This document shows positions 48,627-64,000 of a DNA stretch of 64,000 bases, one piece after another (position 1 is the first letter of the stretch; each line of letters opens with the position of its first letter). The stretch comes from Pseudomonadota bacterium (lineage in GTDB: Bacteria; Pseudomonadota; Alphaproteobacteria; UBA8366), in contig JAYZAS010000019.1 in the NCBI GenBank assembly GCA_036339585.1, positions 1 to 64,000 on the forward strand, given 5' to 3'. Under the pieces are notes generated by a model. The model saw only the letters and a program-made list of their open reading frames with translations. It made no database searches and was not told the origin of the DNA. The position numbers were made by a program, and so were the translations under genes.

Positions 48627-48637
48627 AGGCTGTTAAA

Positions 48638-49591
48638 ATGGTTACCAGGATAGGATCCCATGCTCAAAGCCAAATAGTTCTGCAAGCCACACTTCGTACA
48701 CAAGCAAGATTATTTGATAGCCAAACTCAAGTAGCAACAGGTAAAAAGACGCAGACTTTTTCTGGACTTGCGGGTGATGCACAACGCCTTCTGAATGCTA
48801 AAGCTGATCTTGCCAAAACCGATCAATTTCTTGAAAATATAGAAATCGCTGAGCAGCGCCTCGATATGATGTTATTCTCAGTAGATCGGGTTGATGAGGT
48901 TGCTCGAGAGATGCGTTCACTTTTCCAGAGTGCTCGTAATGGTGACACCGCAAATGTTCTCGACGTTCCCAATATGGCCGAACAGTTTCGTGACCTGGTT
49001 GTCGATCTGCTAAATTCAAAAGACAACGAACGCTTTTTATTTTCTGGGGGAAAGACCGATACAAAACCCGTCGATCTTGGCAACGGCGTTTATACAGCCC
49101 CTGCTCCACCGCCATATGATGACGGCCCGGACACTGGCTATTATGAAGGGGATGACACTGTTAATTCGGTGAGAATCGATAATAGTTTTGTTGTCTCCTA
49201 CGGTGTTTTAGCCAATGCTGACCCTTTCGAGAAAGTAATAAGGGCGTTGGATAATATAGCGCAAATGTCTTTTACTGAGCCTCCTACTGCGGACGAACTC
49301 GCAGTCGTAGAAGCAGCTATCACAGAACTAAATGAGGCAATAGAGGACAATGGCGTCAATCCAACCCTTCAGAATATTGCATCGGGAATCGCGCTCGATC
49401 AAAACCTGATTGCAGAACAACGCAGCAAGCATAGAAGTGTCAAAGTTTTCCTTGAAACTAAAATTGGTGATATTGAAAACGTGAATACAGCTGAAGCAGT
49501 TGCTAAACTAAACTTTGAGCAAGTACAATTAGAAGCATCGTTTCAGGTCATCTCGCGCATACAACGCCTCACCTTAAACACCTTTTTTTAA
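48638..49591 (+). CDS. flgL: Flagellar hook-associated protein 3, FlgL
   Basis: A 317-residue junction protein. N-terminal QVATGKKTQTFSGLAGDAQR and the LNSKDNERFLFSGGKTDTKP block, plus a flagellin-like C-terminal helix (NFEQVQLEASFQVISRIQ), identify FlgL. It follows flgK by 11 bases. Confidence 0.93.
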   Translation: MVTRIGSHAQSQIVLQATLRTQARLFDSQTQVATGKKTQTFSGLAGDAQRLLNAKADLAKTDQFLENIEIAEQRLDMMLFSVDRVDEVAREMRSLFQSARNGDTANVLDVPNMAEQFRDLVVDLLNSKDNERFLFSGGKTDTKPVDLGNGVYTAPAPPPYDDGPDTGYYEGDDTVNSVRIDNSFVVSYGVLANADPFEKVIRALDNIAQMSFTEPPTADELAVVEAAITELNEAIEDNGVNPTLQNIASGIALDQNLIAEQRSKHRSVKVFLETKIGDIENVNTAEAVAKLNFEQVQLEASFQVISRIQRLTLNTFF

Positions 49592-49699: not shown

Positions 49700-51769
49700 A
49701 TGGCATCACGGTCCGAGGATAAATCACCTGACGGTTTTTTTGTTGGGTCTGCAAATCAAGTACTTGATCAAATCCTATTACGCATTGATGATGGCCAGCA
49801 CGAGAGCGCGGAAAATATCCTACGCCAATTGATTAAAAATCGCCCCGGCCACGCTGAATCTTGGAACCTGCGAGGAGTGAATGCAATCAAAGGAGGTGGT
49901 ATTGAGTTAGCGATTGAGTGCTTCACAAAAGCATCCAATATAAACAGCAATAACGCTGTCTATGCTGCAAACCTCGGCAACGCTCTGGGGCTGGATAAAA
50001 GGTGGGGGCAGGCGGCAGGGGCTTGGTCACGTGCAATATTACTAGCACCAAAAAATCCGGAGCATCAGCTAGGGCTCGCAATCTGCATGATGCATCAAGG
50101 TAAGATAACGGAGGCTTTAGAACAAGGAGACCATGCTCTGCAGATGCACCCGCCACCGGAGGTAATATTTACGTTTGCTAAATCACTTTCCAAACACGGC
50201 CAACTTAAGCCTGCAATCAATGCTTACACGGCTGGTCTTTCTCAACAACCAGAGAATACCGAAGCTAAATTCCAACTCGGTGCGTTATTTCAAAAGTTGG
50301 GCGATCTTAAAAATGCCGCAGATTGCTTTCGGGCAATTCATTTGCGTGATCCTAATAACGTAGAAGTACTCTGCCGCCTCTCTGCAATAGCCCGTGAACT
50401 AGGGCAAACAGAAGAAGCAATTCAAGCCGGGGAGCGAACTCTTTCCCTAGACCCCGATTCCGCCGAGGCTCACAATAATCTCGGGCTGGCGCTTTGTGAT
50501 TTAAGCAAATATTCAGAGGCGGTTGAGCATTTTGAGGCAGCACTTACAACCACCAGCGCCCGCTATGAAACATTGAATAACCTTGGGGTTGCTCATCAGG
50601 CTCTCGGGAATTTGGATAAAGCGGAACATGTCTTGCGCCGTGCCCTCATGATTAGCAGCTCATTGCCCGCGGCTGAACGTAACCTTGGGAACGTATTGCG
50701 GCAAGCCGAAAGGTTTGATGAGGCACTGTCATGCTATCAGCGTGCGCTCAAAAAAAACCCGTTAGATTTTACGACTTATGCAAACATTGGGCTATTACTT
50801 ATCAATCTTAATCGGCCAGCCGATGCAATTACAATTTATGAGAAAGCACTATCACTCAAACCTAATCATTTGGGTATTCGTAAAAGTCTAGGCATAGCTC
50901 AATTGCAGTGTGGCAATTTACAAGAGGGCTTTCGTAATTACGAAGCGAGGCTCCCAAAAAAAGACTGCTTCTCAAAAATTCCAAGATGGTTTCCTGATTG
51001 CAACGCTCACTCTGTGCTTGTTACAGCTGAACAAGGCTTCGGTGATACGTTGCAGTTTTGCCGGTACCTCAATCGACTTGTAGAAATGGGATTAAAAGTA
51101 ACCTTTGCCTGTCAACCTACCTTGGTCCGTCTGATGAGAACTGTAAATGCTGCAATTACTGTGATTTCAAAAAATGATAAATTACCTGAAACTGACGCGC
51201 ACATTCCGTTACTTAGCCTGCCATTCGCTCTTAAGAGTACTTTAGAAACGATCCCAGCAGATTGCCCGTATCTTTCGGCGGATGCGGCTCTCACTCCAAA
51301 ATGGCGTAAAATTACCGACAAGGCGGTTAAAAGCGTCGGTCTCGTTTGGTCAGGAAATCCGCACCGCCAGGATGATCGCATGCGCTCATGTCCACCAGAA
51401 TTATTACGCAAGTTGTTATGCATGAAAGAAATTGACTTCTATTCATTGCAAAAGGAAGGAACCCCAACCGACCTTGAAGGAATTATGGATTTGGGCTCTC
51501 ATCTTACAGACTTCGCTGAAACAGCGGCCCTAATCAACTCGTTAGATATTGTTGTTACGGTTGACACAGCAATGGCCCATTTAGCCGGCGCTCTCGGCAA
51601 GCCTGTGTGGGTGATGTTGGGTAATACGGCGGATTGGCGATATTTTTTAGAGCGCAATGATAGCCCGTGGTATCCTCAGATGCGGTTATTCCGACAAAAA
51701 AGGCCCGGTGCTTGGGCCGATCTGATAAGTGATGTTGCAAAGGCATTGAGAGTTTGGGCTGCTGCTTGA
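49700..51769 (+). CDS. TPR protein with glycosyltransferase-9-like C-terminal domain (FlmG-like)
   Basis: A 689-residue protein with about ten TPR repeats (roughly residues 25-390; AEAHNNLGLALCDLSKYSEA is typical) and a C-terminal GT-B-like domain (about 425-689) with TAEQGFGDTLQFCRYLN and VTVDTAMAHLAGALGKPVW, similar to heptosyltransferase-type GT9. Caulobacter FlmG, a TPR-GT, glycosylates flagellins; this architecture is comparable. It directly follows flgL and faces flaF-flbT and the flagellins. A role in flagellin or hook-protein glycosylation is inferred from this context. Confidence 0.82.
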   Translation: MASRSEDKSPDGFFVGSANQVLDQILLRIDDGQHESAENILRQLIKNRPGHAESWNLRGVNAIKGGGIELAIECFTKASNINSNNAVYAANLGNALGLDKRWGQAAGAWSRAILLAPKNPEHQLGLAICMMHQGKITEALEQGDHALQMHPPPEVIFTFAKSLSKHGQLKPAINAYTAGLSQQPENTEAKFQLGALFQKLGDLKNAADCFRAIHLRDPNNVEVLCRLSAIARELGQTEEAIQAGERTLSLDPDSAEAHNNLGLALCDLSKYSEAVEHFEAALTTTSARYETLNNLGVAHQALGNLDKAEHVLRRALMISSSLPAAERNLGNVLRQAERFDEALSCYQRALKKNPLDFTTYANIGLLLINLNRPADAITIYEKALSLKPNHLGIRKSLGIAQLQCGNLQEGFRNYEARLPKKDCFSKIPRWFPDCNAHSVLVTAEQGFGDTLQFCRYLNRLVEMGLKVTFACQPTLVRLMRTVNAAITVISKNDKLPETDAHIPLLSLPFALKSTLETIPADCPYLSADAALTPKWRKITDKAVKSVGLVWSGNPHRQDDRMRSCPPELLRKLLCMKEIDFYSLQKEGTPTDLEGIMDLGSHLTDFAETAALINSLDIVVTVDTAMAHLAGALGKPVWVMLGNTADWRYFLERNDSPWYPQMRLFRQKRPGAWADLISDVAKALRVWAAA

Positions 51770-51917
51770 AACGAGCCCCCCAAATAAACCATAAGCCTTT
51801 AACTGGCTGTTAGGCATCTACAAATAATAATAATCCTTCCTTCTTGAAACCAAGCAACTGCCATTTGACAACTCCACCATCGCTGCCATTTTTAAGACAG
51901 ACACCGCACAGTTCAGG

Positions 51918-52364
51918 CTATGCGACAATTTCCTCATTCCTGAGGTTTGTTCTAACTTCAGCTGGCGGCTCATCGCCCGATACAGATACATCGATATCAT
52001 CTTCATCTGGCGTAGTTAAAAGCCCGGAAGCAATGTTTTTATTAATATCAATCAATACATTCAGTTTCTGAGTATCTGGTTCCGCCAAAGCGTTCACCGT
52101 GTGCTTATCTATGAATACACTCAAGCTCAAAACATTTTGTTTGATATTTTGGGGTAATGGATTTTCATCGGATGATATATCCGCCTGAAATATTGTCCAT
52201 AACCGCCAATTTAACCTTAGAGCAGCTTTATATGAGTCAATATCCCCTGGGTTGGAAAGACAGTCATCAAGCATTCGAGCTGCCTCTAAAAGAGCTTTCG
52301 CTTCGTTTTGAGAAGTGTTTGTGCCAAATTTTTCATAAGATTGATAGGCGCTAGGCTGTGACAT
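51918..52364 (-). CDS. flaF: Flagellin regulator FlaF
   Basis: A 148-residue FlaF-family protein. The first 115 residues match the family (YQSYEKFGTNTSQNEAKALL, ALRLNWRLWTIFQADI, INKNIASGLL); an acidic tail of about 30 follows. In Caulobacter FlaF acts with FlbT and a flagellin to control flagellin translation and secretion. It overlaps flbT by 14 bases. Confidence 0.9.
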   Translation of the reverse strand: MSQPSAYQSYEKFGTNTSQNEAKALLEAARMLDDCLSNPGDIDSYKAALRLNWRLWTIFQADISSDENPLPQNIKQNVLSLSVFIDKHTVNALAEPDTQKLNVLIDINKNIASGLLTTPDEDDIDVSVSGDEPPAEVRTNLRNEEIVA

Positions 52365-52743
52365 GCTTCAACACCTCTTGTTCATATTTCATTAATTTAC
52401 GGCATTTTTTTAAAGCACCGTATACATCGCCGGTAATAACGTCTTTTCCAATCTCAAATACAATAGAAGTTGAACTCGGAACGGCTTTTATGAATTGTTT
52501 AACCAACTGATTAAATTTCTGCTGATAATAACGATCTTTTTCTGGGAACATGTAAAGCATCTGGACCATAAAATATATCCGTTTGGCAGGTGTATCTGCC
52601 TCCTCTTCTGACATAATATCACGCTCCCGCAAAATACTGGCTTTGTTCTCAAGTACGAGTTCTGACTTTTCCCCGCCATTTAAGATAACAGCCTGATTGA
52701 TAGCCACTTTTTCTCCAGGCTTTAGGACTATTTTTAATGGCAT
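52351..52743 (-). CDS. flbT: Flagellin post-transcriptional regulator FlbT
   Basis: A 130-residue homologue of Caulobacter FlbT, which binds flagellin mRNA leader and represses it until the hook is done. The N-terminus MPLKIVLKPGEKVAINQAVI and RIYFMVQMLYMFPEKD are family hallmarks. It lies downstream of the first flagellin, beyond a terminator, so read-through or its own promoter must express it. Confidence 0.92.
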   Translation of the reverse strand: MPLKIVLKPGEKVAINQAVILNGGEKSELVLENKASILRERDIMSEEEADTPAKRIYFMVQMLYMFPEKDRYYQQKFNQLVKQFIKAVPSSTSIVFEIGKDVITGDVYGALKKCRKLMKYEQEVLKHVTA

Positions 52744-52884
52744 TACAGAGAAGCCTCAAGAATTATAACAATTGTACTTTACCGAAACAAAAATGCTTAC
52801 TGCGAAAAGGGTATTCAATTTCCGTACCAAAATAGCATTTTTCAAAGTTTTATGATCTTTGATCCCCAGAATAAGGTAAAAAAA

Positions 52885-52909
52885 GGGGGCCCAAGTTAGA
52901 CGGGCCCCC
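52885..52909 (-). terminator. Rho-independent terminator of flagellin gene 1
   Basis: Minus strand: GGGGGCCC, nine-base loop, GGGCCCCC, then T7 (52878-52884). It lies 26 bases past the flagellin stop, a textbook intrinsic terminator for a highly expressed gene. Confidence 0.9.
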
Positions 52910-52935
52910 GAATTAAGCTTAGTTTTTTATTATTT

Positions 52936-53763
52936 TTAACCGAAGAGAGCCAGAATTGACCGCTCACTCTGGGCGGCCAGAGCCAAAGAGTTGATGCCGA
53001 GTTGCTGACGTGTTTGTAGGGCCAGCAGATTAGCACTCTCCTTATTCAGGTCTGCAAGGGTCAATTTGCCCGCGCCGTCCTGAAGCGTGCCAATTAAATT
53101 ATCACCAAAATCTAATCGCGTCTGCAATATCGATGCGCTAGAACCTAGAGTTGACGCATTTGAGCGTAACTCGGTGATAGCACTATTCACTGCCGTGATT
53201 GCAGTATCGATTGCAGTGGTGTCGGCAAAGTTATTGGTAGCATTGGCAATATTTAAGCCCGTAGATGCTGTCGTCGAATCGAGACCCGAAATCGTTAAGG
53301 TACTCGAAGCATCCTCGTTAAAGTCAATGATTAGGTTATCAGCCGAAGCCTTAACCAAATTTGTGCCATTAAAACTCGCATCGTTCGCCAAATCATCAAT
53401 CTGACTTAAAATGTCGTTAAATTGCACTGCTAAAGTAGACTGCTCCGAGGTATCACCGGTTGCCTTAGCGTTGTTCGCAAGGCCCTTGGCCTGCTCAACT
53501 AGTTCTGTAATGGCGTCAAGACCGTCGATCGCAGCTGCAACTGACGAAATCCCCAAGTCAACATCATTGCGTAAAGCCGCAAAGTCATCCGCGCGGTTGT
53601 TTAGAGCCCCCGCGGTGAAAAATGCACTGGCTCCGTCTATCGGTGAACCAACTGCTAGTCCAGAGGCAAGACGATCTTGGGTCTTGCTAACAAGTGTAGA
53701 AGTGCGTTGCAGTGTCAAAAGGTTTGAACGCACAGCTGTCGTAAGCGTAATTTCATTACCCAT
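52936..53763 (-). CDS. Flagellin 1
   Basis: A 275-residue filament subunit with N-terminal D0/D1 (ITLTTAVRSNLLTLQRTSTL, VNNRADDFA-type helices) and C-terminal D1/D0 (LNKESANLLALQTRQQLGIN, ending ERSILALFG). There is only a short central region (about 130-170), so no large D2/D3 domain, as in alphaproteobacterial flagellins. It is closely similar to flagellin 2, mainly differing in residues 1-70. It has a sigma-54-type promoter at 53883-53897 and a strong terminator. Confidence 0.95.
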   Translation of the reverse strand: MGNEITLTTAVRSNLLTLQRTSTLVSKTQDRLASGLAVGSPIDGASAFFTAGALNNRADDFAALRNDVDLGISSVAAAIDGLDAITELVEQAKGLANNAKATGDTSEQSTLAVQFNDILSQIDDLANDASFNGTNLVKASADNLIIDFNEDASSTLTISGLDSTTASTGLNIANATNNFADTTAIDTAITAVNSAITELRSNASTLGSSASILQTRLDFGDNLIGTLQDGAGKLTLADLNKESANLLALQTRQQLGINSLALAAQSERSILALFG

Positions 53764-53882
53764 TTTTAGCTCCTTTTCTAGGACATATCAGCCGCTTTCT
53801 GCGACCGCTGAACACCCCAAGCCGGTTTCTCCATTTTAGGGCACCACTCACAAATCGAATGATAAAGTTCGACTGTTGTCAC

Positions 53883-53897
53883 GCAACAGATGTGCCA
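53883..53897 (-). promoter_or_regulatory. Putative sigma-54 promoter of flagellin 1
   Basis: Minus strand TGGCAC-ATCTG-TTGC: exact -24 and -12 core elements with the required spacing. It lies 120 bases before the flagellin start, leaving a leader of about 105 bases that could carry FlbT regulation. Confidence 0.8.
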
Positions 53898-54018
53898 CAG
53901 TATTGACCCACAAGTGACTGGGCATAAGCCTATGATTTTGAACCGGATTTTCTGACAGCTGCTTTTAAAAATTAGGAGAAGCGGCAAAATTTTCCTAAAA
54001 AACGGCAAAATGTGCCCA

Positions 54019-54040
54019 CCGGGCGGAATATTCTGCCCGG
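54019..54040 (-). terminator. Probable terminator of flagellin gene 2
   Basis: CCGGGC and GCCCGG flank an AT-rich GGAATATTCT that can pair further (near-perfect palindrome). It lies 47 bases past the flagellin 2 stop. A T-run (TTTTTT) follows only about 20 bases later on the minus strand, so strength is uncertain. Confidence 0.5.
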
Positions 54041-54086
54041 CAGTTTAATTCCCGAGGTGTTACCGCAGGTCAGTTGGACTTAATAA

Positions 54087-54914
54087 CTAACCGAACAAGG
54101 CTAACACGGCTCTCTCGCTTTGCGAGGCCAATGCCAGAGAATTGAGCCCAAGTTGTTGTCGCGTTTGAAGCGATAAGAGATTAGCACCTTCCTCATTCAG
54201 ATCTGCTAAAGTTAATGTGCCAGAACCCTCCAGCAGAGTGTTTGCCAGGTCCTCGGTAAAACTTAACCTTGTCTGCAAAATGGAGTTATTCGACCCAAGT
54301 GTTGCTGCGTTCCCTCTTAATTCGACAAGAGCACTATTAATTGCTGTCAAAGCAGTATCGATCGCAGCGCTATCAGCAAAGTTATTGGTAGCATTAGCAA
54401 TGTTTAACCCAGTTGTTGCAGTTGTTGAGTCAAGCCCGCTAACCGTGATGGTGTTGCTACTATCTTCATTGAAATCGATAATTAAGTTGTCTGGCGTTCC
54501 CTTGATGAGGTTGATACCATTGAAGCTGGCATCATTTGTCAAATCATCGAGCTGAGTAAGAATATCATTGAACTGCACCGCGAGAGTTGATCGTTCGTTG
54601 GTATCACCAGTAGCAGCGGCGTTATTGGCCAAACCCTTAGCTGTGCCCACAAGTTCGGTAATTGCCTCGATGCCTTGTAACCCGGCCGTAACTGTGCTTA
54701 TACCAAGCTCAATATTATCTTTTATCCGCGACAAATCATCTGCACGAAAATTTAATGATCTCGAGATAAAAAAAGCGGTAGCATCATCTTGTGCGCTATT
54801 AACCTTCAAACCAGTAGCTAAGCGCTCTTGAGTTATATCGGTTAGGCCAGCGGTTCGTTGAAGTGTCAGTAGGTTAGACCTTACTGCCACGGATAGGTTG
54901 ATCTTATCTACCAT
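54087..54914 (-). CDS. Flagellin 2
   Basis: A 275-residue flagellin and close paralogue of flagellin 1: the same length, and the shared core (LANNAxATGDTxExSTLA, DDLxNDASFNGxNLxK, LNIANATNNFAD) continues to the C-terminus LALFG. N-terminus INLSVAVRSNLLTLQR. Paired flagellins often form distinct filament zones. It has its own sigma-54-type promoter (55012-55026). Confidence 0.95.
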   Translation of the reverse strand: MVDKINLSVAVRSNLLTLQRTAGLTDITQERLATGLKVNSAQDDATAFFISRSLNFRADDLSRIKDNIELGISTVTAGLQGIEAITELVGTAKGLANNAAATGDTNERSTLAVQFNDILTQLDDLTNDASFNGINLIKGTPDNLIIDFNEDSSNTITVSGLDSTTATTGLNIANATNNFADSAAIDTALTAINSALVELRGNAATLGSNNSILQTRLSFTEDLANTLLEGSGTLTLADLNEEGANLLSLQTRQQLGLNSLALASQSERAVLALFG

Positions 54915-55011
54915 CTGTCATGTCCTTTCTGACTTTGACAATGGCGCTATGTGTGGCGGTTATACCTTTGGTGCGGATTTCCACTGAAGCGCCAAACCTA
55001 TTCCGAAAAGC

Positions 55012-55026
55012 GCAACGGACATGCCA
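55012..55026 (-). promoter_or_regulatory. Putative sigma-54 promoter of flagellin 2
   Basis: Minus strand TGGCAT-GTCCG-TTGC: one mismatch in the -24 box (TGGCAC expected), correct spacing and exact -12 core. It lies 98 bases before the flagellin 2 start. Confidence 0.6.
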
Positions 55027-55139
55027 ACAATTACTAAGCCCTAAGCATATGTTTTATATGAATATTTAATGCCAATTCCGATCCCAAAAAAGTTGGCGGC
55101 CGATTTCTACCGGGCATTTCTTACCACTAATGGAATATA

Positions 55140-56249
55140 TTACCCAGCTCGGGTATTTTCTATGAATTCAACTAATTTGCGCTTTATCCTAGCTATGTCC
55201 TGCGCATTCAAATCTATCGAAAATGGCAACCCAAGTACTCGATCTGCTAAGTCGTTTGTGACCGACAACTCTGCTTTGGGCGCATTCGCAAAGGCAGGCT
55301 CTCGATGACATCCACGGCTCCACCACTGTCGAACCTCAATCCGCTGAGTTTGCATAAACACTTTTGCTGCCTCTACAGACGTCTCCCGCAAAATTACGTT
55401 AAAGGTAGATTTAGCAAAATCTGTTTCCGATCCTGGCGCTAGTGTAATGCCGTCCACATTAGACAATGCACGCCTAAGCTGCACGGCACGCTCCCGTAAA
55501 CGGCACCGTAAATCCGGCCATGCGTCTAATGCCGCATGGCCTACAGCTGCTGAATATTCACTCATCTTCCCATTAAAACCGGCACCCTCTGCCAGCCGTT
55601 TCTTATGAAACCCAAAGTTACCATGCTGAAATAAAGCCTCGGCTCTATTGCTATCTCGACACATAATAAGACCACCCTCGCCGATACCAAGCGGTTTGGT
55701 GGCATGTAGACTAATCACAACAGGGCTCTGGCCAGCTTGGGCACTATCTATCCCTGCTGCAGAGTCAATCACAACAGGAATTCCTGTTTTAGCAGCTAGC
55801 TCATCCCATATATCAATATCAAGTGGAGCGCCAAACGGGGCCACAGCTAAGATAGCCCTCACCGGCTGGTTCAAATCTTCAAGAGCTTCGAGCACTAAAT
55901 TCCGATCTAGGGCCCAGCTATCCGGATCAACGTCCAGAAAAAATGGCGTAAGGCCCGCAGCTATAGCTGCGTGCGCACTAGCAACGAAAGTAAAAGACGG
56001 CATTAAGCATAGCCCGCTTTCGCCCGCCGACGCCTCACGCAAGGCCATAGCCAATCCGAGTGTTCCGCTCGAGGTCATTACGATATTCTGATAGTCGACC
56101 GAGAACATATCGGCGAAACGTGAGCGCAATCTTTGCTCCAATGGGCCATAATTGCTGTACCAACGATTGCTGTCGATTTCTGCCAAATATGGCATGATCA
56201 CTTCCGCCTGTGGCAAAGTTGGCCGCATCAAGGGAATATCATAATCCAT
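55140..56249 (-). CDS. DegT/DnrJ/EryC1/StrS-family sugar aminotransferase
   Basis: A 369-residue PLP-dependent enzyme of the nucleotide-sugar aminotransferase family. The Schiff-base lysine is K185 in SLHATKPLGIGEGG; D162 in VVIDSAAG and the TSSGTLGLAMAL block (60-70) fit PLP binding. Such enzymes make amino sugars such as pseudaminic or legionaminic acid precursors, which decorate flagellins. The closest enzyme is not known, and alternatives such as an unrelated amino-sugar pathway remain. It lies 31 bases downstream of the TPR-GT at 56281. Confidence 0.88.
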   Translation of the reverse strand: MDYDIPLMRPTLPQAEVIMPYLAEIDSNRWYSNYGPLEQRLRSRFADMFSVDYQNIVMTSSGTLGLAMALREASAGESGLCLMPSFTFVASAHAAIAAGLTPFFLDVDPDSWALDRNLVLEALEDLNQPVRAILAVAPFGAPLDIDIWDELAAKTGIPVVIDSAAGIDSAQAGQSPVVISLHATKPLGIGEGGLIMCRDSNRAEALFQHGNFGFHKKRLAEGAGFNGKMSEYSAAVGHAALDAWPDLRCRLRERAVQLRRALSNVDGITLAPGSETDFAKSTFNVILRETSVEAAKVFMQTQRIEVRQWWSRGCHREPAFANAPKAELSVTNDLADRVLGLPFSIDLNAQDIARIKRKLVEFIENTRAG

Positions 56250-56280
56250 TTTGATAGGTTCCCACTTTTTGTTGCATTTA

Positions 56281-58023
56281 TTATTTGTCTCGTTGCAAGT
56301 GTGCTGCCAGCGCTTTATGTACCCTACAAATCACGGGACCCCAATCACTCCTCGAGTTTTGACGGAAAATCCTTGCTGTTGGATACCACGGACTGTCTTC
56401 TCGCTCTAGAAGCCAACGCCAATCAGGGCCATGAGGTACCAGTATCCACACCGGTTTACCCATGCCGCCGACAAGGTGCGCAAGAGCCGTATCCACCGTA
56501 ATAACTAAGTCAACGCTGGAGACAATCGCAGCAGTGTCTAGGAAATTTTTGAACCCACTCCCAAATTCCTTCACACCAAGTTTTTTGAGAGCTCTCCGGT
56601 CCTCATCATCCAGCTCTGTCTGCAGGCTTATAAACTCCACTGCTTCCTGATGAAATAATATTTCAAAATTAGACAACGAACATGATCGATGTCGCCCTTT
56701 TCTGTTTGTTTTGCTCCCACGCCACACAAATCCGATTGTAAATTTCCCAAAGTCAACCCGTGGCTTAGGAAGCGGCAAATAGGGTACTGCAGCTGGCACC
56801 GTTTCAAGTGTTGTACCAAATTTATTAGGAAGGCTCATTAGGGCAACATGCAAATCAACCGAAGGCAGACTATTACCGAGAGGAACAACCGTATTGAGCC
56901 AAGATATTTTCGCAAACAATGGAACCAAAGAAGAGGGACATTCGAGAACTACGCGCGCACCTGCCTCCGCGAGCAGTGCGCCATAACGCACAAATTGTAA
57001 TCCATCTCCAAGACCCTGCTCGTGATGAATTAGAACGGTTTTACCCGCGACTGGCTCACCATTCCACTCAGCTCCATCAAATTGGCGTTTTTCTAAAAAT
57101 GGAACTGCGGCCCAACGCCATTCATATTCTGCCCAACCACGTTTATAGTCACCATCCAACAGAAGCGCTAAAGAACGGGTCCAAGCTGCTTCCGCCATCG
57201 CTGGTTCAAGAGCAAGCGCCCTTTCGGCAGCCTTCAGAGCAAGCGCAATGTTCTCAAACGCTAATTCTACTGTTGCAAGATTGGCATGAGCGTCTGCATA
57301 ATATGGATCAATTTCTATCGCTCGCTTGTAGCAAAGGCGCGCGTCACCGGGCCGATCAAGCGCGCAATATGCATTTCCCAGATTATATTGGGCTTCTTTG
57401 CAAGTTTGGTCCAATGATGTAGCTCTCTCTCCATCTTGGACAGCTCCTTTTGGGTCATCAAAATCTAATCGAAGGCTACACCGATTAGCTCTAAAAACTG
57501 AGTTTCCTGGTTCCAACCGACATGCTTCCCAATTGGCTTTCAATGCTTCCTCAATGCGGCCCAACTGTTGCAAGGCTATTGCATAATCATTTTGCGCAAC
57601 CGCGTGAGATGGCGATATTTTTACGGCCCTACTCAACATATCACGTGCTTCAATGGCACGCCCCACACTGAGGAATACTCTACCCGCATTATAATAGCCA
57701 TCGGGCGAGTGTGGGGCTAAAGTAATTGCTTCTTCTAACTCAGCTAGAGCATCCCTAACTTGATCACAAGCAGCTAAAGCAATCCCATAATTTATTTTTA
57801 CCGGGGCAAATCCCGGGTTAAGCTGTACGGCCTTTTTTAATAGCAAACATGCAGCTTTGGCATCCCCGCGGTCAAGAACAAGGGCACCTGCTAATTGAAG
57901 CGCTTCGGGATTTTCGGGGCTCTCATCGAGGATAGCATTATATATCTCGTAAGCCTCGTCGAGATGACCTTTAAGGTGACACAAAAGCCCTTTTTTTAGT
58001 CTTTCATCAAAACTATCATCCAT
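56281..58023 (-). CDS. TPR protein with glycosyltransferase-9-like C-terminal domain
   Basis: A 580-residue protein: TPR repeats at about 1-300 (ADAHANLATVELAFENIALA) and a C-terminal domain at about 325-580 with HHEQGLGDGLQFVRYGALL and ITVDTALAHLVGGMGKPVW, the same two motifs as the TPR-GT at 49700. The two are paralogues of the FlmG-like type. Next to DegT and WbqC genes, it is probably a flagellin or surface-protein glycosyltransferase; the donor and target are inferred only. Confidence 0.82.
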   Translation of the reverse strand: MDDSFDERLKKGLLCHLKGHLDEAYEIYNAILDESPENPEALQLAGALVLDRGDAKAACLLLKKAVQLNPGFAPVKINYGIALAACDQVRDALAELEEAITLAPHSPDGYYNAGRVFLSVGRAIEARDMLSRAVKISPSHAVAQNDYAIALQQLGRIEEALKANWEACRLEPGNSVFRANRCSLRLDFDDPKGAVQDGERATSLDQTCKEAQYNLGNAYCALDRPGDARLCYKRAIEIDPYYADAHANLATVELAFENIALALKAAERALALEPAMAEAAWTRSLALLLDGDYKRGWAEYEWRWAAVPFLEKRQFDGAEWNGEPVAGKTVLIHHEQGLGDGLQFVRYGALLAEAGARVVLECPSSLVPLFAKISWLNTVVPLGNSLPSVDLHVALMSLPNKFGTTLETVPAAVPYLPLPKPRVDFGKFTIGFVWRGSKTNRKGRHRSCSLSNFEILFHQEAVEFISLQTELDDEDRRALKKLGVKEFGSGFKNFLDTAAIVSSVDLVITVDTALAHLVGGMGKPVWILVPHGPDWRWLLEREDSPWYPTARIFRQNSRSDWGPVICRVHKALAAHLQRDK

Positions 58024-58099
58024 GAGCTCATTGTAGTGATCAAATGCAGAGAGTGATACAAGCTTTGCAACATACCGGTGTATTGTCTAGTATCTAAAT

Positions 58100-58750
58100 A
58101 TGACCTGCATAGCAGTAATTCAGCCATATTTCGTGCCTTATGCCGGATATTTCCGGCTCTTTGCAGCCGCCGACAAAGTGGTTTTGTATGATTGTGTTCA
58201 ATTTCCACGTCGAGGACGGGTGCACCGCAATGTACTGCCAGATTCGAACTCAAATCGACAATGGCTGACGCTGCCACTCCAAAAAGCTAACGTAAAGGTA
58301 AAAATACGAGACCTTAGTTTTGCCGAAGATGCAAAAGAAGCAATGATACAACGCACTTCTCGGTTCCCATCCCTGTCGACCGCTCCATGCGAATTAATGT
58401 CTCTGATACATCGCCCGGTAGGAAGTGTCGTAGATTATCTGGAATCTACATTGAAGGTGACTTGTAAACTATTAGGTTTGCCATGCAACACAACACGTTC
58501 CTCTTTGCTAGAATTACCCCCTCAGCTGAGTGGCACACAGCGGATTATAGCCGTCGCCAATTCATTGGGCGCGGATACATACGTCAATCTCTCCGGTGGA
58601 CGAAACCTTTACAATAAATCCACATTCCTAAAACAGGGCATCAAGTTAAAATTTTTAAACGAATGGCAAGGCTCAAAATGGAGCATTTTGCAGCACTTGG
58701 CATTAGAAGAAAGAGCCCTCATAGCGAAAGACATTTGGGCTCAATGCTAG
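58100..58750 (+). CDS. WbqC-family protein
   Basis: A 216-residue protein starting MTCIAVIQPYFVPYAGYFRL, with DCVQFPRRGRVHRN and VNLSGGRNLYNKSTFLKQGI, the two blocks of the WbqC family found in O-antigen and glycan clusters. Its enzymatic role is poorly known; several members are proposed to act on nucleotide-sugar intermediates. It diverges from the TPR-GT at 56281. Its TAG overlaps the TAG of the opposite gene in a CTAG palindrome. Confidence 0.88.
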   Translation: MTCIAVIQPYFVPYAGYFRLFAAADKVVLYDCVQFPRRGRVHRNVLPDSNSNRQWLTLPLQKANVKVKIRDLSFAEDAKEAMIQRTSRFPSLSTAPCELMSLIHRPVGSVVDYLESTLKVTCKLLGLPCNTTRSSLLELPPQLSGTQRIIAVANSLGADTYVNLSGGRNLYNKSTFLKQGIKLKFLNEWQGSKWSILQHLALEERALIAKDIWAQC

Positions 58751-60915
58751 CCCCGCGCTACCCTAAGGATGAATTCACTCAGTGCATTTATGTGACACAT
58801 GTCACCAAATATGGAGTCAGAACGTTCTACTACTCGCTCGCGGACATGCCTGTGAAAGTCATAATCCTTCGCAAACCGCACCGCACGGCTGACGTATTCT
58901 TCACCGCTATCAACGACTGGCTCTCTAATATCCATTAATTGATAGAGTGCCGCGGTATAGCGCCCTCGAAGGAAACGACCCGGCCACGTTAACATTGGTG
59001 TTCCAGCGCCAATTGCCTGCCAACTTGTATTTCCACCACCGAATGGGCGGGTATCAAGAGAAACATCGGATATAGAAAGTACATTCATAAAGTCCATGTG
59101 GCTCATCGCCGGTAAAAATTTAACACGATCTACGACGTCGGGAATACTGCATTCAAAGCGAGCCTGCAGCCTGTCTGAGAGACCAGGGGTAAACCCGGCA
59201 GGTATTAGTATATAGCCTTCTGGGTCTGCTCGAAGGATTTCGCCTAACAAAATATCCATCTCTGGGTGAATTTTAAACAGAGTTTGCGCACAGAAATAAA
59301 GCGATCGTTTTTGAGGCAAGCCAATTTCTGCCCGCGTCTTCAGGTTCTTCGGGAGTTCGGGTCGATCGTAATAGGTTGGAGCACCAGGAAGCCGAACTAA
59401 GCATTCTGCATAATGGTTATCTGCATTATTTGGCTCTTGTAAATCACTGCTCAAATAATAGTCTATGTTGGGCACCCCAACGGTATCTGGGTGTCCACCA
59501 AGCACACACTGCACCGGCGCTAGCCGTGCAAAACTCAGGAAATAGGTCAGCGGTTCCATTCCTATATCGGTATAAATTAAAACATCAAGACCGGTCTTCG
59601 CTATTTTTTTACGAGCTTCCCCTAACCGTGGCGGCAAGACAATAGCTTGATCAACATCGTGTGCAATTGCCGACCAAAGTGGATCCGACCCTTTTGAGAA
59701 GGTAAATGCTGTCACATGAATGTTCTCCCGCGGCATAAATCGGATTATTCCGTGGAAGCATCGACCCACAGAGTTTAACTGCAACTGGCGCGAGATAAAT
59801 CCAACGCGTACCCTTGAATCTTTATAACGCTGTTCACAATGAACCTTTCCCAGACCTGGACAAGCATTAAGATAAAGTTCAGCCAGATGCTTTTGGGTGT
59901 TTTTATTATTAGTGTCGTGATATGAAATTAAAAAATTGCTGGCTCCAACCTCAATATATGGGTCGTCCAGATGGCAATCCAACCTGGCTATGTTCTGAAG
60001 ACTGTTGTCTAATTCTATGCGAGCTGCGTTCATCTCTTCAAGCGAAGACGCCACGACCGGTAGCAACGTTGAGAGACGAAATAGCAACCCATCGTCGTTG
60101 CCTAATTCCAGAGCTCTTCGCCAATTAGCTCGCGCAGCTGTTATATTTCCAACCTTCGCATCCAAATTACCGATATTTTTTAGAATTTGTTTATTACTAG
60201 GTTCTAAGCGAACGGCTTCCTCTAAATTTTCACCCGCTTCAACGAGATTTCCAGTTTCAACCAAGGCAAGTCCTAAATTGTTAAGGGTCTCAGCTGAGCT
60301 GGGTGTTAACTTTACCGCTTGGCGAAGTATTTTCAGGGCTGCTTCCGGCTCACCCTGTTCGAGTAAAATTACACCAAGACTATTTGATGCCCCCGCATGC
60401 TTCGGTGCTAGCCTTATAACCTCAGAAAACACCCTAGCAGCTGCCTCTACGCGCCCGAGCTCTCGTAGAGCTACCCCCTTGTTGTGAAGCAGATTTGGAT
60501 TATCGGGAGATAAGGAAAGTGCTTCTTCATAAGAATCAAGTGCCGCCTGAAATTCCCCGGTCTCTCTATATAAATTTCCCAAGTTAAAATGACCCATCGA
60601 TTGCTTTGGGTCGAGGGCAAGGGCTCTCAGGAGATAAACTTTGGCTGCCTCCGTATCCCCCATTTCGCGAGTGACAACACCTAGATTTATCAGGAGTGCG
60701 GGGTTTTTCGGGTCTTCACTTTCAGCCCGTTTGAGCAAATCTAGTGCTGCTGAAGTTTCTCCAGATTTATGAGCTAAGATACCTAGCATCTGCAAGGCAC
60801 CCGCGTGACGTGGATTGATAATGATAATTTGCCTGTATATTTCTCCAGCCATATCAGACCTTCCGGCCTCATAATGCCAACGCGCAGAGTTGTAGAGTGT
60901 ATCTGTCTTAGTCAC
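58747..60915 (-). CDS. TPR-O-GlcNAc-transferase-like (SPINDLY type) glycosyltransferase
   Basis: A 722-residue protein: TPR array at about 5-265 (AAKVYLLRALALDPKQSMGH) and a C-terminal GT41/SPINDLY-like domain at about 350-720, with LIYTDIGMEPLTYFLSFARL, VQCVLGGHPDTVGV, LYFCAQTLFKIHP and DTRPFGGGNTSWQA. This class adds sugars to Ser/Thr of proteins in bacteria and plants. Starts at GTG (60915), overlapping the upstream paralogue by eight bases. In this flagellar locus, flagellin is the likely target. Confidence 0.85.
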   Translation of the reverse strand: MTKTDTLYNSARWHYEAGRSDMAGEIYRQIIIINPRHAGALQMLGILAHKSGETSAALDLLKRAESEDPKNPALLINLGVVTREMGDTEAAKVYLLRALALDPKQSMGHFNLGNLYRETGEFQAALDSYEEALSLSPDNPNLLHNKGVALRELGRVEAAARVFSEVIRLAPKHAGASNSLGVILLEQGEPEAALKILRQAVKLTPSSAETLNNLGLALVETGNLVEAGENLEEAVRLEPSNKQILKNIGNLDAKVGNITAARANWRRALELGNDDGLLFRLSTLLPVVASSLEEMNAARIELDNSLQNIARLDCHLDDPYIEVGASNFLISYHDTNNKNTQKHLAELYLNACPGLGKVHCEQRYKDSRVRVGFISRQLQLNSVGRCFHGIIRFMPRENIHVTAFTFSKGSDPLWSAIAHDVDQAIVLPPRLGEARKKIAKTGLDVLIYTDIGMEPLTYFLSFARLAPVQCVLGGHPDTVGVPNIDYYLSSDLQEPNNADNHYAECLVRLPGAPTYYDRPELPKNLKTRAEIGLPQKRSLYFCAQTLFKIHPEMDILLGEILRADPEGYILIPAGFTPGLSDRLQARFECSIPDVVDRVKFLPAMSHMDFMNVLSISDVSLDTRPFGGGNTSWQAIGAGTPMLTWPGRFLRGRYTAALYQLMDIREPVVDSGEEYVSRAVRFAKDYDFHRHVRERVVERSDSIFGDMCHINALSEFILRVARG

Positions 60916-63016
60916 TGATTGATACCGACCGCAGAAATTTTATTAAATCTTCAATAACGTCCGTATCATTAAAAATTAGTTCCGATCGCTCAAGAATTTT
61001 TGACGATATCATTGAGCGTAATTTCTTATTTTGTCCAAGCTTTAAGGCAATATTGAGATAATCTTCCGGTGAAGCTGCAATACAATCGAATATTCCCATA
61101 TGCTTATACAAAGCTTTTGCGCCAAGACCACGAATAAACTCACCGGGTAGAGTTACAACTGGAAGACCAAATCCAAAAGCTTGGTAATTGGTATTTCCTC
61201 CCCCAAAGGGCCAAGTGTCTAAGATAACATCGCCGAGGCTTAGTATGGCTAAAAACCCATCCCAATCTGTTCGTTTCAAAACTATCACTCGGTCGAGTGC
61301 ATTGCCAAAAATCGGTCGCCAGCGAGAAATGAGTTTACTGGTCAAGGTTGGCGGATCCCCCTCAAAAATTACAAGTCGACCATTAGTGTCGGCTTTGATG
61401 AGCCTCGCAAGCCACTGATCCATATCCGGATGAATTTTGAACAAGCTCTGAGGGCACATGTATAAAATACGGTTTTCGGGCAAATTAGCATCACGCCGTG
61501 TGAGATTATCGGCCGTTATAGGCCGTTGGTAGCATGTCTGCACACCTCCAAGCCGGATTAATTTCTCAGTGTAATGATCCTGCGCCTTGCAGGGTTCTGC
61601 CTTGTCGCTAGATAGATAATAATCGACAGTACTGACACCACTTGTGACCGGGTGCCCCCAAAGCATGCATTGGACGGGAGCTAATCGTGCAAAACTGAGG
61701 TAGTAGCTAAAAGGGTCCATGCCAATGTCCGCGTAAATCAAAATATCAAGATGCAATTCGGAGATAACTTTACGAGCGGATATTAAATCGTGCGGCAGTG
61801 CAACCGAATGTGAAACTCTAAGCTTTAGGCTTTCCCATCCTTTATCTTCTTCATCGGCAAGAGAAACAAGTACCACCTCAATTTCATTGCCTGCCTTATC
61901 GACTAATCCTTCAAGTAGACCCTTTAGAGTATATCCCACTGCGTGACTTTTTAGGTAACGGGAGAAAAATCCAACACGGCGTCTGGAAGAATGCGGCGCA
62001 ATAGCATCAGAAACATAATTCAGTGATGGACATGCTTGACGCCAGAATTCGGATAGCTTTTCCATGAGAGGGCGATCATTGTTTCCATGGTACGCTAAAT
62101 AGAAATTCATAACCGGGACGCTTAACGGATCACCGCTGTATTTTAAGCGCTTTGCATGCAGCACGTCGAACCCCTCCTCAAAGCGCTGCCGCCACAGTCC
62201 GATATCCTCCGATGAGGATGGTATTGCTTGCATAAGCCCAGCTCGGGCTATAAAAAAATGCGGCTGCGGCCGCTCGTCTATTAACCGAGCAAGAATATCA
62301 TCTGCTTCGTCAACCCTACCTGCGCCAGCCAATGAGAGTGCCCAATTATAGCGTGCGTCTAAAAAACCTGGCCGTGCAGTCAAAGCAGCTTCAAATGCAG
62401 TCGCGGCCTCATCGTAGCGCTTTTGACGTTTTAGCAGGTTACCAAGATTATTATGTGCTTCTGCAATGCTAGAATTAAGTTCTATCGCAGCTCGATAACT
62501 TGCCTCGGCCTCCACACTACGGCCTAACTTGACCAAAACCTTTCCACGATTTACCAAGATATTAACTGACTGTTCATCTTGGGCAAGACCCTGATTTAGT
62601 ACAACTAGTGCCTCCTCACACTGTCCAGACAAGTCCAATAAAACTCCAAAGTTTGAGTATGCATCGACATATTCCGGATCACACTCAATAGCAGTTTGGT
62701 AATGCTTCATTCCAGAACCGAAGTCTCCCAATGCAACTGCCACAACCCCAGCATGTGTGTGAAACATCGCCTGACCCGGTAAAAGTCTTATGGCCGAAGC
62801 AATTTTTTCTGCCGCCTCTTTCAATCTCCCCTGAGCATGCAATGATAGACCGAAGAGATGCAAAGCATCGGGATCATTCGGAGCTTTTTGGAGCGTCACC
62901 TTAAATGCTTTCTCAGCACCTTTGTGATCTCCCATCTTTTGTAAAGCTAAAGCTTTCTGCAAATAGTCGTCAACCATTACCAAACAGTCTACCATTGGGA
63001 TGTTATCTTTTGGCAA
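60908..63016 (-). CDS. TPR-O-GlcNAc-transferase-like (SPINDLY type) glycosyltransferase, paralogue
   Basis: A 702-residue paralogue of the next gene. TPR repeats lie at about 15-255 (SIAEAHNNLGNLLKRQKRYD); the GT41-like domain at about 330-695 carries LIYADIGMDPFSYYLSFARL, VQCMLWGHPVTSGV, LYMCPQSLFKIHP and DTWPFGGGNTNYQAFG. Tandem copies may have different substrates or work as a complex. The start is unsure: TTG at 63016 has no ribosome-binding sequence, and ATG codons at 62995 and 62977 are alternatives. It diverges from the acetyltransferase at 63062. Confidence 0.82.
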   Translation of the reverse strand: MPKDNIPMVDCLVMVDDYLQKALALQKMGDHKGAEKAFKVTLQKAPNDPDALHLFGLSLHAQGRLKEAAEKIASAIRLLPGQAMFHTHAGVVAVALGDFGSGMKHYQTAIECDPEYVDAYSNFGVLLDLSGQCEEALVVLNQGLAQDEQSVNILVNRGKVLVKLGRSVEAEASYRAAIELNSSIAEAHNNLGNLLKRQKRYDEAATAFEAALTARPGFLDARYNWALSLAGAGRVDEADDILARLIDERPQPHFFIARAGLMQAIPSSSEDIGLWRQRFEEGFDVLHAKRLKYSGDPLSVPVMNFYLAYHGNNDRPLMEKLSEFWRQACPSLNYVSDAIAPHSSRRRVGFFSRYLKSHAVGYTLKGLLEGLVDKAGNEIEVVLVSLADEEDKGWESLKLRVSHSVALPHDLISARKVISELHLDILIYADIGMDPFSYYLSFARLAPVQCMLWGHPVTSGVSTVDYYLSSDKAEPCKAQDHYTEKLIRLGGVQTCYQRPITADNLTRRDANLPENRILYMCPQSLFKIHPDMDQWLARLIKADTNGRLVIFEGDPPTLTSKLISRWRPIFGNALDRVIVLKRTDWDGFLAILSLGDVILDTWPFGGGNTNYQAFGFGLPVVTLPGEFIRGLGAKALYKHMGIFDCIAASPEDYLNIALKLGQNKKLRSMISSKILERSELIFNDTDVIEDLIKFLRSVSISD

Positions 63017-63061
63017 GAAGAGGATTTGCGTAATAATAACCCAATGCTTTAGGTATAAAGA

Positions 63062-63724
63062 ATGAAAAAGCTAATCATCTTTGGAATCGGCCAGATTTCT
63101 GAAGTAGCGCACTACTTCTTTACAGAGGACAGTGAGTACGAGGTTGCAGCGTTTACAGCAAATAGCAATTTCATCGACCGAGACTTACATTTAGGTTTGC
63201 CAACAATTCCTTTTGAAGACATTCATGAGAAATGTCCGCCGGATGAATTTACTATGTTTATCGCGGTGGGGTATGAAAAAATGAACTTGCTACGGCGCAA
63301 CAAGCTCGAGGCCGCGCGAACTTTAGGTTATGACATAGCACATTACGTTTCAAGCCGTGCTTTCGTACCAAATAATTTTAAAGCACGGGATAACTTATTC
63401 CTACTCGAAAATAATAATGTTCAGCCATATGCAATTATCGGAGAGAACGTAACGCTATGGAGCGGCAATCACATCGGTCACCACTCCGTGATAGAGAATG
63501 ATGTGTTCGTTTCAAGTCAAGTCGTAATTTCTGGATCTGTAAGGGTAGGTCGGGCGAGTTTTCTCGGAGTAAACTCAACTATAGGCGACAATATTTCGGT
63601 AGGTGTTGAAAATATTATAGGTGCAGGATCATTAATAATGACAAATACTGACGATAAGGCAATTTTCAAGGCAAACCCAACTTACAAATCTCGAATCACA
63701 AGCGACCGCCTGAGATCATTCTAA
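63062..63724 (+). CDS. NeuD/PglD-like sugar acetyltransferase
   Basis: A 220-residue protein with an N-terminal Rossmann-like PglD_N fold (LIIFGIGQISEVAHYFF) and a left-handed beta-helix of hexapeptide repeats (about 110-200: LLENNNVQPYAIIGENVTLW, NHIGHHSVIENDVFVSS). Such proteins O- or N-acetylate sialic-acid-like sugars. With DegT it suggests acetamido-sugar synthesis for glycosylation. Its TAA overlaps the next gene's ATG (TAATG), so they are coupled. Confidence 0.85.
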   Translation: MKKLIIFGIGQISEVAHYFFTEDSEYEVAAFTANSNFIDRDLHLGLPTIPFEDIHEKCPPDEFTMFIAVGYEKMNLLRRNKLEAARTLGYDIAHYVSSRAFVPNNFKARDNLFLLENNNVQPYAIIGENVTLWSGNHIGHHSVIENDVFVSSQVVISGSVRVGRASFLGVNSTIGDNISVGVENIIGAGSLIMTNTDDKAIFKANPTYKSRITSDRLRSF

Positions 63725-64000
63725 TGCTATGGCGTGGCTTGGGACATATTTTTACTGCAAAGGGCCAGCGTTCCTGGATGCAAAGCCACTGCTCAATGCC
63801 TTTTGCTGAACCTCTTACCGGCACGCGCTGTCGGATTTGGTTTACGGCCAGGAATAAAAATAATCACTCGCACGTGGCGTGGCTTGAAATTGACCTACAA
63901 GAGCCCAAAAAAATTCTGGCACTGTCCCAACGTCCATCACTCGCGCCAGGTTTCCCACGGACATTTGACGAATTTGGAGTAATGAATTCATGGGTTGTCA
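63724..64000 (+). CDS. Partial beta-propeller-like (glycoside-hydrolase-43-like) protein
   Basis: An open frame of 92 codons from an ATG at 63724 to the window end, coupled to the acetyltransferase stop. It reads MLWRGLGHIFTAKGQRSWM, then QSHCSMPFAEPLTGT, RIWFTARNKNNHSHVAWLEI and FPRTFDEFGVMNSWVV. This pattern of HSH(C/A)xxP, YFxxRD-like and SHVxxxxI blocks is seen in proteins annotated as GH43-like or glucosamine-inositolphosphorylceramide transferase-like in bacterial glycan clusters. The function is unknown, and the C-terminus is missing. Confidence 0.65.
   Translation, partial: MLWRGLGHIFTAKGQRSWMQSHCSMPFAEPLTGTRCRIWFTARNKNNHSHVAWLEIDLQEPKKILALSQRPSLAPGFPRTFDEFGVMNSWVV

Follow-up and report, generated by a model that had tools for sequence, protein, structure and literature searches.

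The window analysed in this study, a 64,000-nt stretch of contig C19 (86,216 bases), belongs to the 2.79-Mb draft genome of an alphaproteobacterium (G000). Sequence comparison showed its close relatives to be genomes from marine metagenomes, which carry the label Rhodospirillaceae or Alphaproteobacteria. The window reaches into a large flagellar gene cluster spanning about 25-84 kb of the contig, within which an island bounded by flgL (end 49591) and flaG (start 66486) carries, in order, the genes for GT9a, FlaF, FlbT, flagellin 1, flagellin 2, DegT, GT9b, WbqC, GT41a, GT41b, a NeuD-like protein, a GH130-like protein, PhyH, and a methyltransferase. The last two lie beyond the window, where the island continues to about 66.1 kb and is followed by FlaG, FliK, FlgD, FlgE, and FliF. 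GT9a, GT9b, GT41a, and GT41b each combine tetratricopeptide repeats (TPR) with a glycosyltransferase (GT) domain, and are referred to here as TPR-GTs. The first-pass annotation of this DNA had described four such enzymes of two classes (two GT9-type and two GT41/OGT-type) amid two flagellins, DegT, WbqC, and a NeuD-like protein, and all of these are indeed present, as judged from profile matches and, in the case of GT9b, from its model fold.

Conservation of the island

The genome encodes approximately 11 TPR-GTs, of which six are GT41 proteins and five combine TPR with a GT9-type end. Because four of them occur in 13.3 kb beside the flagellins, against about 0.05 expected for such an interval of a 2.79-Mb genome, and because the arrangement recurs in most members of the family, this clustering is not due to chance. 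The gene order is conserved in G001-G004 and G007. G005 and G008-G010 follow it too, apart from lost genes or breaks at contig ends, and in all these family genomes the island lies between flgL and flaG. Two congeners and genus g2 have the order of G000. In genus g3 an extra TPR-GT41 adjoins GT9a; GT9b is absent from G008, and the contig of G010 ends inside the island. Genus g4 is without GT41a and PhyH and has GT9b reduced to about 60 C-terminal residues, and it keeps degT, wbqC, GT41b, neuD, the GH130-like gene, and the methyltransferase gene. The joint absence of PhyH, GT41a, and GT9b in g4 weakly suggests that the three belong to the same extra modification.

As the island has been kept in order across the family beside the flagellins, its role is very probably to decorate the filament of the flagellum. 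Glycosylation of flagellin or another flagellar protein, as the first-pass annotation had proposed, is well supported by the family-wide synteny within the flagellar cluster and by a TPR-GT design resembling that of FlmG from Caulobacter crescentus (PMC7591256). Recent horizontal acquisition was considered but is not supported, since the GC content of the island is normal (42.8-49.5%, with a contig mean of 44.9%) and its proteins diverge from those of relatives about as much as the adjacent flagellar proteins do. Taken as a whole, we consider it likely that the locus is a vertically inherited flagellar glycosylation island, with flagellin as its acceptor and with the sugar pathway proposed below.

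Outside the family, the same spot is occupied differently. A complete (100%) sister-family genome, G011, has GT9a only, with none of the sugar genes. In another, G019, and in loci L103 and L104, a different cassette is found as far as the contigs reach, comprising acyltransferases, a PhyH or TauD-type dioxygenase, a methyltransferase, and one GT41. degT is part of it in G019 and L103. The cassette is of the same chemical kind as the G000 island, but its acyltransferases belong to different families.

The GT9-type enzymes

GT9a (49700..51769, plus strand; PF01075, 29.3 bits, cut-off 22; many TPR) lies directly 3' of flgN-flgK-flgL, with the genes for FlgK and FlgL (46515..49591) upstream on the same strand. 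It adjoins flgL in every family and sister-family locus whose contig covers that region, and in G011 it is retained without NeuB as well as without the island sugar genes. GT9a is the most widely retained transferase of the set and would be its oldest member, probably using a donor made elsewhere. The first-pass annotation had raised separate treatment of the two flagellins or of hook-associated proteins, and here the evidence points neither way. One explanation for the position of GT9a is that GT9a glycosylates FlgK and FlgL, leaving GT9b, GT41a, and GT41b to serve the flagellins. The constant placement after flgN-flgK-flgL, which extends to the island-less G011, would be in keeping with such a split of acceptors but is only suggestive. 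GT9a also adjoins flaF-flbT-flagellin, and a single enzyme, FlmG, modifies all six flagellins of Caulobacter (PMC7591256). We find this division of labour doubtful and favour flagellin as the acceptor of the set.

For GT9b (56281..58023, minus strand), a Pfam profile search gave no GT match, and a PDB sequence search with its catalytic domain returned nothing meaningful. Its predicted structure (predicted local distance difference test score, pLDDT, 90.8) begins with a TPR superhelix and ends in a GT-B unit. Taken over its full length, the model resembles SPINDLY (SPY) and OGT, and residues 322-579 fit the solved GT9 enzyme 3tov (Z 18.7, root-mean-square deviation 2.8, 243 residues aligned). 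Its GxGD and nucleotide-loop DTAxAHL motifs, whose roles we take to be those known from heptosyltransferases, contain the invariant residues G339-D340, D511-T512, and A515-H516-L517. Judged from these motifs, GT9b appears to keep the residues expected of an active GT9 enzyme.

The GT41 enzymes and their active sites

GT41a (58747..60915, minus strand) and GT41b (60908..63016, minus strand) both match PF13844 at about 71 bits (cut-off 25), and their genes overlap by 8 nt, an overlap retained in congeners and in G003 and G007. Like human OGT (hOGT), SPINDLY, TtOGT from Thermobaculum (5djs), and XcOGT, they join TPR to a GT41 domain and keep the donor-phosphate lysine (hOGT K842, SPY K665), which is found as FKIHP or IKLHP in all GT41a and GT41b orthologues. 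Unlike those enzymes, they belong to the 'GHP' subclade, have flagellin genes as neighbours, and carry glutamine at the position of hOGT D925. This glutamine is present in 17 of 17 GT41a and GT41b proteins, whereas the four other GT41 proteins of G000 have Asp or Glu, XcOGT has Asp, and TtOGT has Glu. In hOGT, this aspartate contacts the ribose of UDP. The substitution may thus point to a different donor nucleotide.

The two proteins also differ from one another at the position of SPY H495, which corresponds to hOGT H558 and not to H498 according to our alignment and the literature (PMC9715652). GT41b has histidine there in nine of nine genomes, and GT41a has asparagine in seven of seven family members. 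Because the tree groups the histidine-bearing GT41a-like proteins of the sister family with GT41a (support 92/91), the His-to-Asn change arose on the stem of the family's GT41a. As the SPY mutants H495A and H495F are dead (PMC9715652), it is conceivable that GT41a, which is assigned to GT41 provisionally by fold and profile only, is a pseudo-glycosyltransferase that assists GT41b as a partner, by binding flagellin or by regulation, and the conserved overlap of the two genes would suit a partnership of this kind. However, the lysine and the donor loop GGGNT of GT41a are intact, GT41a evolves no faster than GT41b, and the authors of the SPY study consider that H495 may be structural rather than catalytic (PMC9715652). 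Furthermore, G005 and G009 have GT41b without GT41a, so GT41b cannot need GT41a there. On balance, a loss of catalysis in GT41a is possible but somewhat improbable, and we favour the view that both GT41 proteins transfer sugar. An altered active-site histidine is also seen in another lineage, as GT41-like proteins of Pelosinus (L139, L140, L143, L144) have glutamine at the SPY H495 position.

The sugar genes

The DegT/DnrJ sugar aminotransferase (55140..56249, minus strand; PF01041, 202 bits) has 3ju7 and then DesI (2po3), of the type of aminotransferase that uses dTDP-4-keto-6-deoxyglucose, as its nearest solved relatives, and DesI is also its best NCBIfam match (177.8 bits, below the cut-off of 650). 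The NeuD/PglB/VioB-like acyltransferase (63062..63724, plus strand), a hexapeptide-repeat protein (PF00132), reaches 137.3 bits with TIGR03570, below the cut-off of 160.8; its gene is present in G003, although missed by annotation. The neighbouring gene, which had been taken for a partial GH43-like gene, turned out to be complete in the contig (63724-64632, with 63724..64000 in the window; plus strand) and encodes a protein of 302 aa whose weak matches are to GH130 1,2-beta-mannan phosphorylases. RmlB (dTDP-glucose 4,6-dehydratase) is encoded elsewhere in G000 (475.8 bits, cut-off 365.1). From this gene set, the island sugar is probably an N-acylated amino sugar resembling dTDP-viosamine.

The WbqC-family protein (58100..58750, plus strand; PF08889, 116.5 bits, cut-off 21.3) has a predicted structure (pLDDT 91.8) that we tentatively assign to the HUP fold. 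Searches of PDB sequences with WbqC and of the literature for its function yielded nothing meaningful and no functional paper, respectively, and Foldseek gave weak matches only, to class I tRNA synthetases (E 0.02). With VIA-align, the model matches BshC of Bacillus subtilis best (4wbd; Z 13.4, 209 of 216 residues aligned), followed by class I lysyl-tRNA synthetase (Z 11.6). BshC, the bacillithiol synthase, joins cysteine to an amino sugar. WbqC differs from it in that its HIGH-like motif reads YAGY and in that the two share 10% identity. By analogy of predicted folds, and with low confidence, we propose that the amino group introduced by DegT might be coupled by WbqC to an amino acid or a carboxylic acid. 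A second WbqC is encoded at 125.6 kb of contig C2.

DegT, WbqC, and NeuD are families common in O-antigen clusters, and the island could be imagined to make a surface polysaccharide, either lipopolysaccharide (LPS) or capsule, and to have only a chance location among the flagellar genes. However, inspection of the interval revealed no polymerase, flippase, ABC exporter, or initiating phosphotransferase. In addition, family members keep the island between flgL and flaG, and those soluble TPR-GTs of this type that have been characterised have proteins as their acceptors. A polysaccharide function is therefore very improbable compared with flagellin glycosylation.

The first-pass annotation had suggested a check beyond position 64000 for genes of pseudaminic or legionaminic acid synthesis. 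They are not there; instead, a nonulosonic-acid cluster is located on contig C2 at about 95-135 kb (L016, L017), unlinked to the island, with two NeuB, PseB (517 bits, cut-off 408), a LegC-like aminotransferase, a WbuX N-acetyl sugar amidotransferase, and HisH/HisF-like genes. Pseudaminic or legionaminic acid may therefore also be made by this organism. As FlmG uses pseudaminic acid (PMC7591256), and the genome has two NeuB and a PseB that scores above its cut-off, one could suppose an ordinary FlmG system in which all four GTs transfer the nonulosonic acid of contig C2 and the island merely modifies it. This supposition has to contend with the lack of linkage between the NeuB genes and the island, and with G011, which has GT9a but no NeuB. 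Moreover, the GT41 enzymes whose donors have been established take UDP- or GDP-sugars and are not known to use CMP-sugars. We hold such a system to be quite unlikely and prefer a sugar made by the island itself as the one added by GT41b, GT41a, and GT9b.

Flagellins and their promoters

Flagellin 1 (52936..53763, minus strand; PF00669 above cut-off) and flagellin 2 (54087..54914, minus strand; PF00669, 71.6 bits) are both 275 aa long. Their Ser/Thr-rich central hairpins, GLDSTTASTG and GLDSTTATTG, are encoded within 53240-53400 and 54390-54560 of the window. Two positions of the hairpin, occupied by a Thr pair or a Ser/Thr pair (GLDSTTA in G000), are kept in 19 homologues, which makes this pair a candidate glycosylation site and only a candidate. 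The genes for the flagellin secretion/assembly factor FlaF (51918..52364, minus strand; PF07309, 96.7 bits) and the flagellin regulator FlbT (52351..52743, minus strand; PF07378, 146.7 bits) lie between GT9a and flagellin 1.

A sigma-54-type promoter site scoring 15 of 15 precedes each flagellin gene. The site upstream of flagellin 1 (TGGCACATCTGTTGC, 53883..53897, minus strand) is present in most relatives examined but not in G003 or G007, and that upstream of flagellin 2 (TGGCATGTCCGTTGC, 55012..55026, minus strand) is present in all 12 loci examined. A site scoring 14 of 15 upstream of degT is shared by G000 and G002 and is missing from g2 and g3. Common sigma-54 control of the GT genes and the flagellins was rejected on account of the weak sites of the former. 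No structured RNA was found with Rfam at gathering scores between 38 and 64 kb.

Discussion

In the pathway that we propose, DegT would aminate a nucleotide keto-sugar, most likely dTDP-4-keto-6-deoxyglucose supplied by RmlB, and the NeuD-like protein, WbqC, PhyH, and the methyltransferase would then acylate, hydroxylate, and methylate the product to a viosamine-like N-acyl amino-sugar nucleotide. The TPR superhelices of the four GTs would bind flagellin in the cytoplasm prior to export, and their GT domains would place sugars on Ser/Thr residues in its exposed part, with GT41b, GT41a, and GT9b adding the sugar or sugars of the island. The earlier suggestion of several sugars is plausible in this light, given the occurrence of GT9a without sugar genes in G011 and the joint loss of PhyH, GT41a, and GT9b in g4. 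Overall, the earlier interpretation is partly supported, being right in outline.

Several observations weigh against this proposal. Upstream of the GT genes, sigma-54 sites score 12.5 at best. The scores of DegT and the NeuD-like protein fall below the cut-offs of the curated families, and the identity of the island sugar is therefore a guess. Enzymes of the kinds found in the island also serve LPS or capsule synthesis, and the neighbourhood alone leaves room for a second use.

The closest functional parallel is Caulobacter FlmG, a soluble GT whose TPR domain binds flagellin and which acts before export (PMC7591256). As in FlmG, the TPR-GTs of the island have an N-terminal TPR and a C-terminal GT-B domain in one chain and are predicted to be soluble, and they occur in an alphaproteobacterium, in a flagellar gene context, and in a genome with nonulosonic-acid genes; the likeness is one of architecture and context. 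In contrast to the single FlmG, the island has four enzymes of two GT families, its own amino-sugar genes, and no linkage to NeuB, which G011 lacks altogether despite having GT9a. The viosamine island of Pseudomonas syringae, which serves flagellin, offers a comparable enzyme set, with a sugar aminotransferase, a VioB-type acyltransferase, and a methyltransferase (PMC3927599). There, however, the transferase is VioT, whose substrate is a glycan primed with rhamnose, and the acyl group derives from the vioS, vioR, and acp genes (PMC3927599), whereas the G000 island has WbqC, PhyH, the GH130-like protein, and the TPR-GTs.

A bolder reading, which we regard as unlikely, takes the GT41 pair to be dedicated flagellin glycosyltransferases for an unusual N-acyl amino-sugar nucleotide, hence the glutamine at the Asp/Glu position of the donor site, with one of the two having a conserved altered active site and with WbqC as a BshC-like ligase. 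If flagellin glycosylation by the island is confirmed, cytoplasmic O-glycosylation of flagellin would widen from a lone enzyme of the FlmG type to a modular set of four, in which the family of human OGT and plant SPINDLY is represented, and nature would supply a case of a GT41 enzyme with an abundant, purifiable acceptor. The conserved asparagine copy beside the histidine copy constitutes a natural test of the need for this histidine in GT41 catalysis, and a BshC-like role of WbqC, which can be tested, would be a starting point for understanding a family that is widespread in sugar clusters.

Multi-TPR-GT clusters of both classes are not confined to the family of G000, because Trichlorobacter thiogenes (Thermodesulfobacteriota; L130:9971-20176) carries, immediately upstream of its flagellin gene, the genes for three TPR-GT41 proteins and one GT4-TPR-GT9-type protein, and FlbT and FlaF are encoded in the vicinity. 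As a cultured organism, it is one in which the idea could be tested. Family f3, of the same order as G000, has near its flagellins one TPR protein whose end is weakly GT41-like; in G012 (L089) a Maf protein comes next, and NeuB is close by. The Maf/MptE-like domain PF01973 has no match anywhere in the G000 genome.

A few further genes were noted in and around these loci. The island of G004 (genus g3) has been entered by a gene for a PAS histidine kinase (L102:5048-7645), and a HAD hydrolase gene (L102:2239-2961) is found where no methyltransferase homologue was detected. Genus g4 has an enolase-superfamily (mandelate racemase-like) gene between GT9a and flaF (L107:17685-18809 and L108:17819-18946). 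Contig C16 of G000 (L021, 5-20 kb) has a further stretch crowded with genes for TPR proteins, where a TPR-GT41, a TPR-GT9, and radical-SAM-like proteins are also encoded; it is not flagellar and is perhaps another locus for protein or peptide modification.

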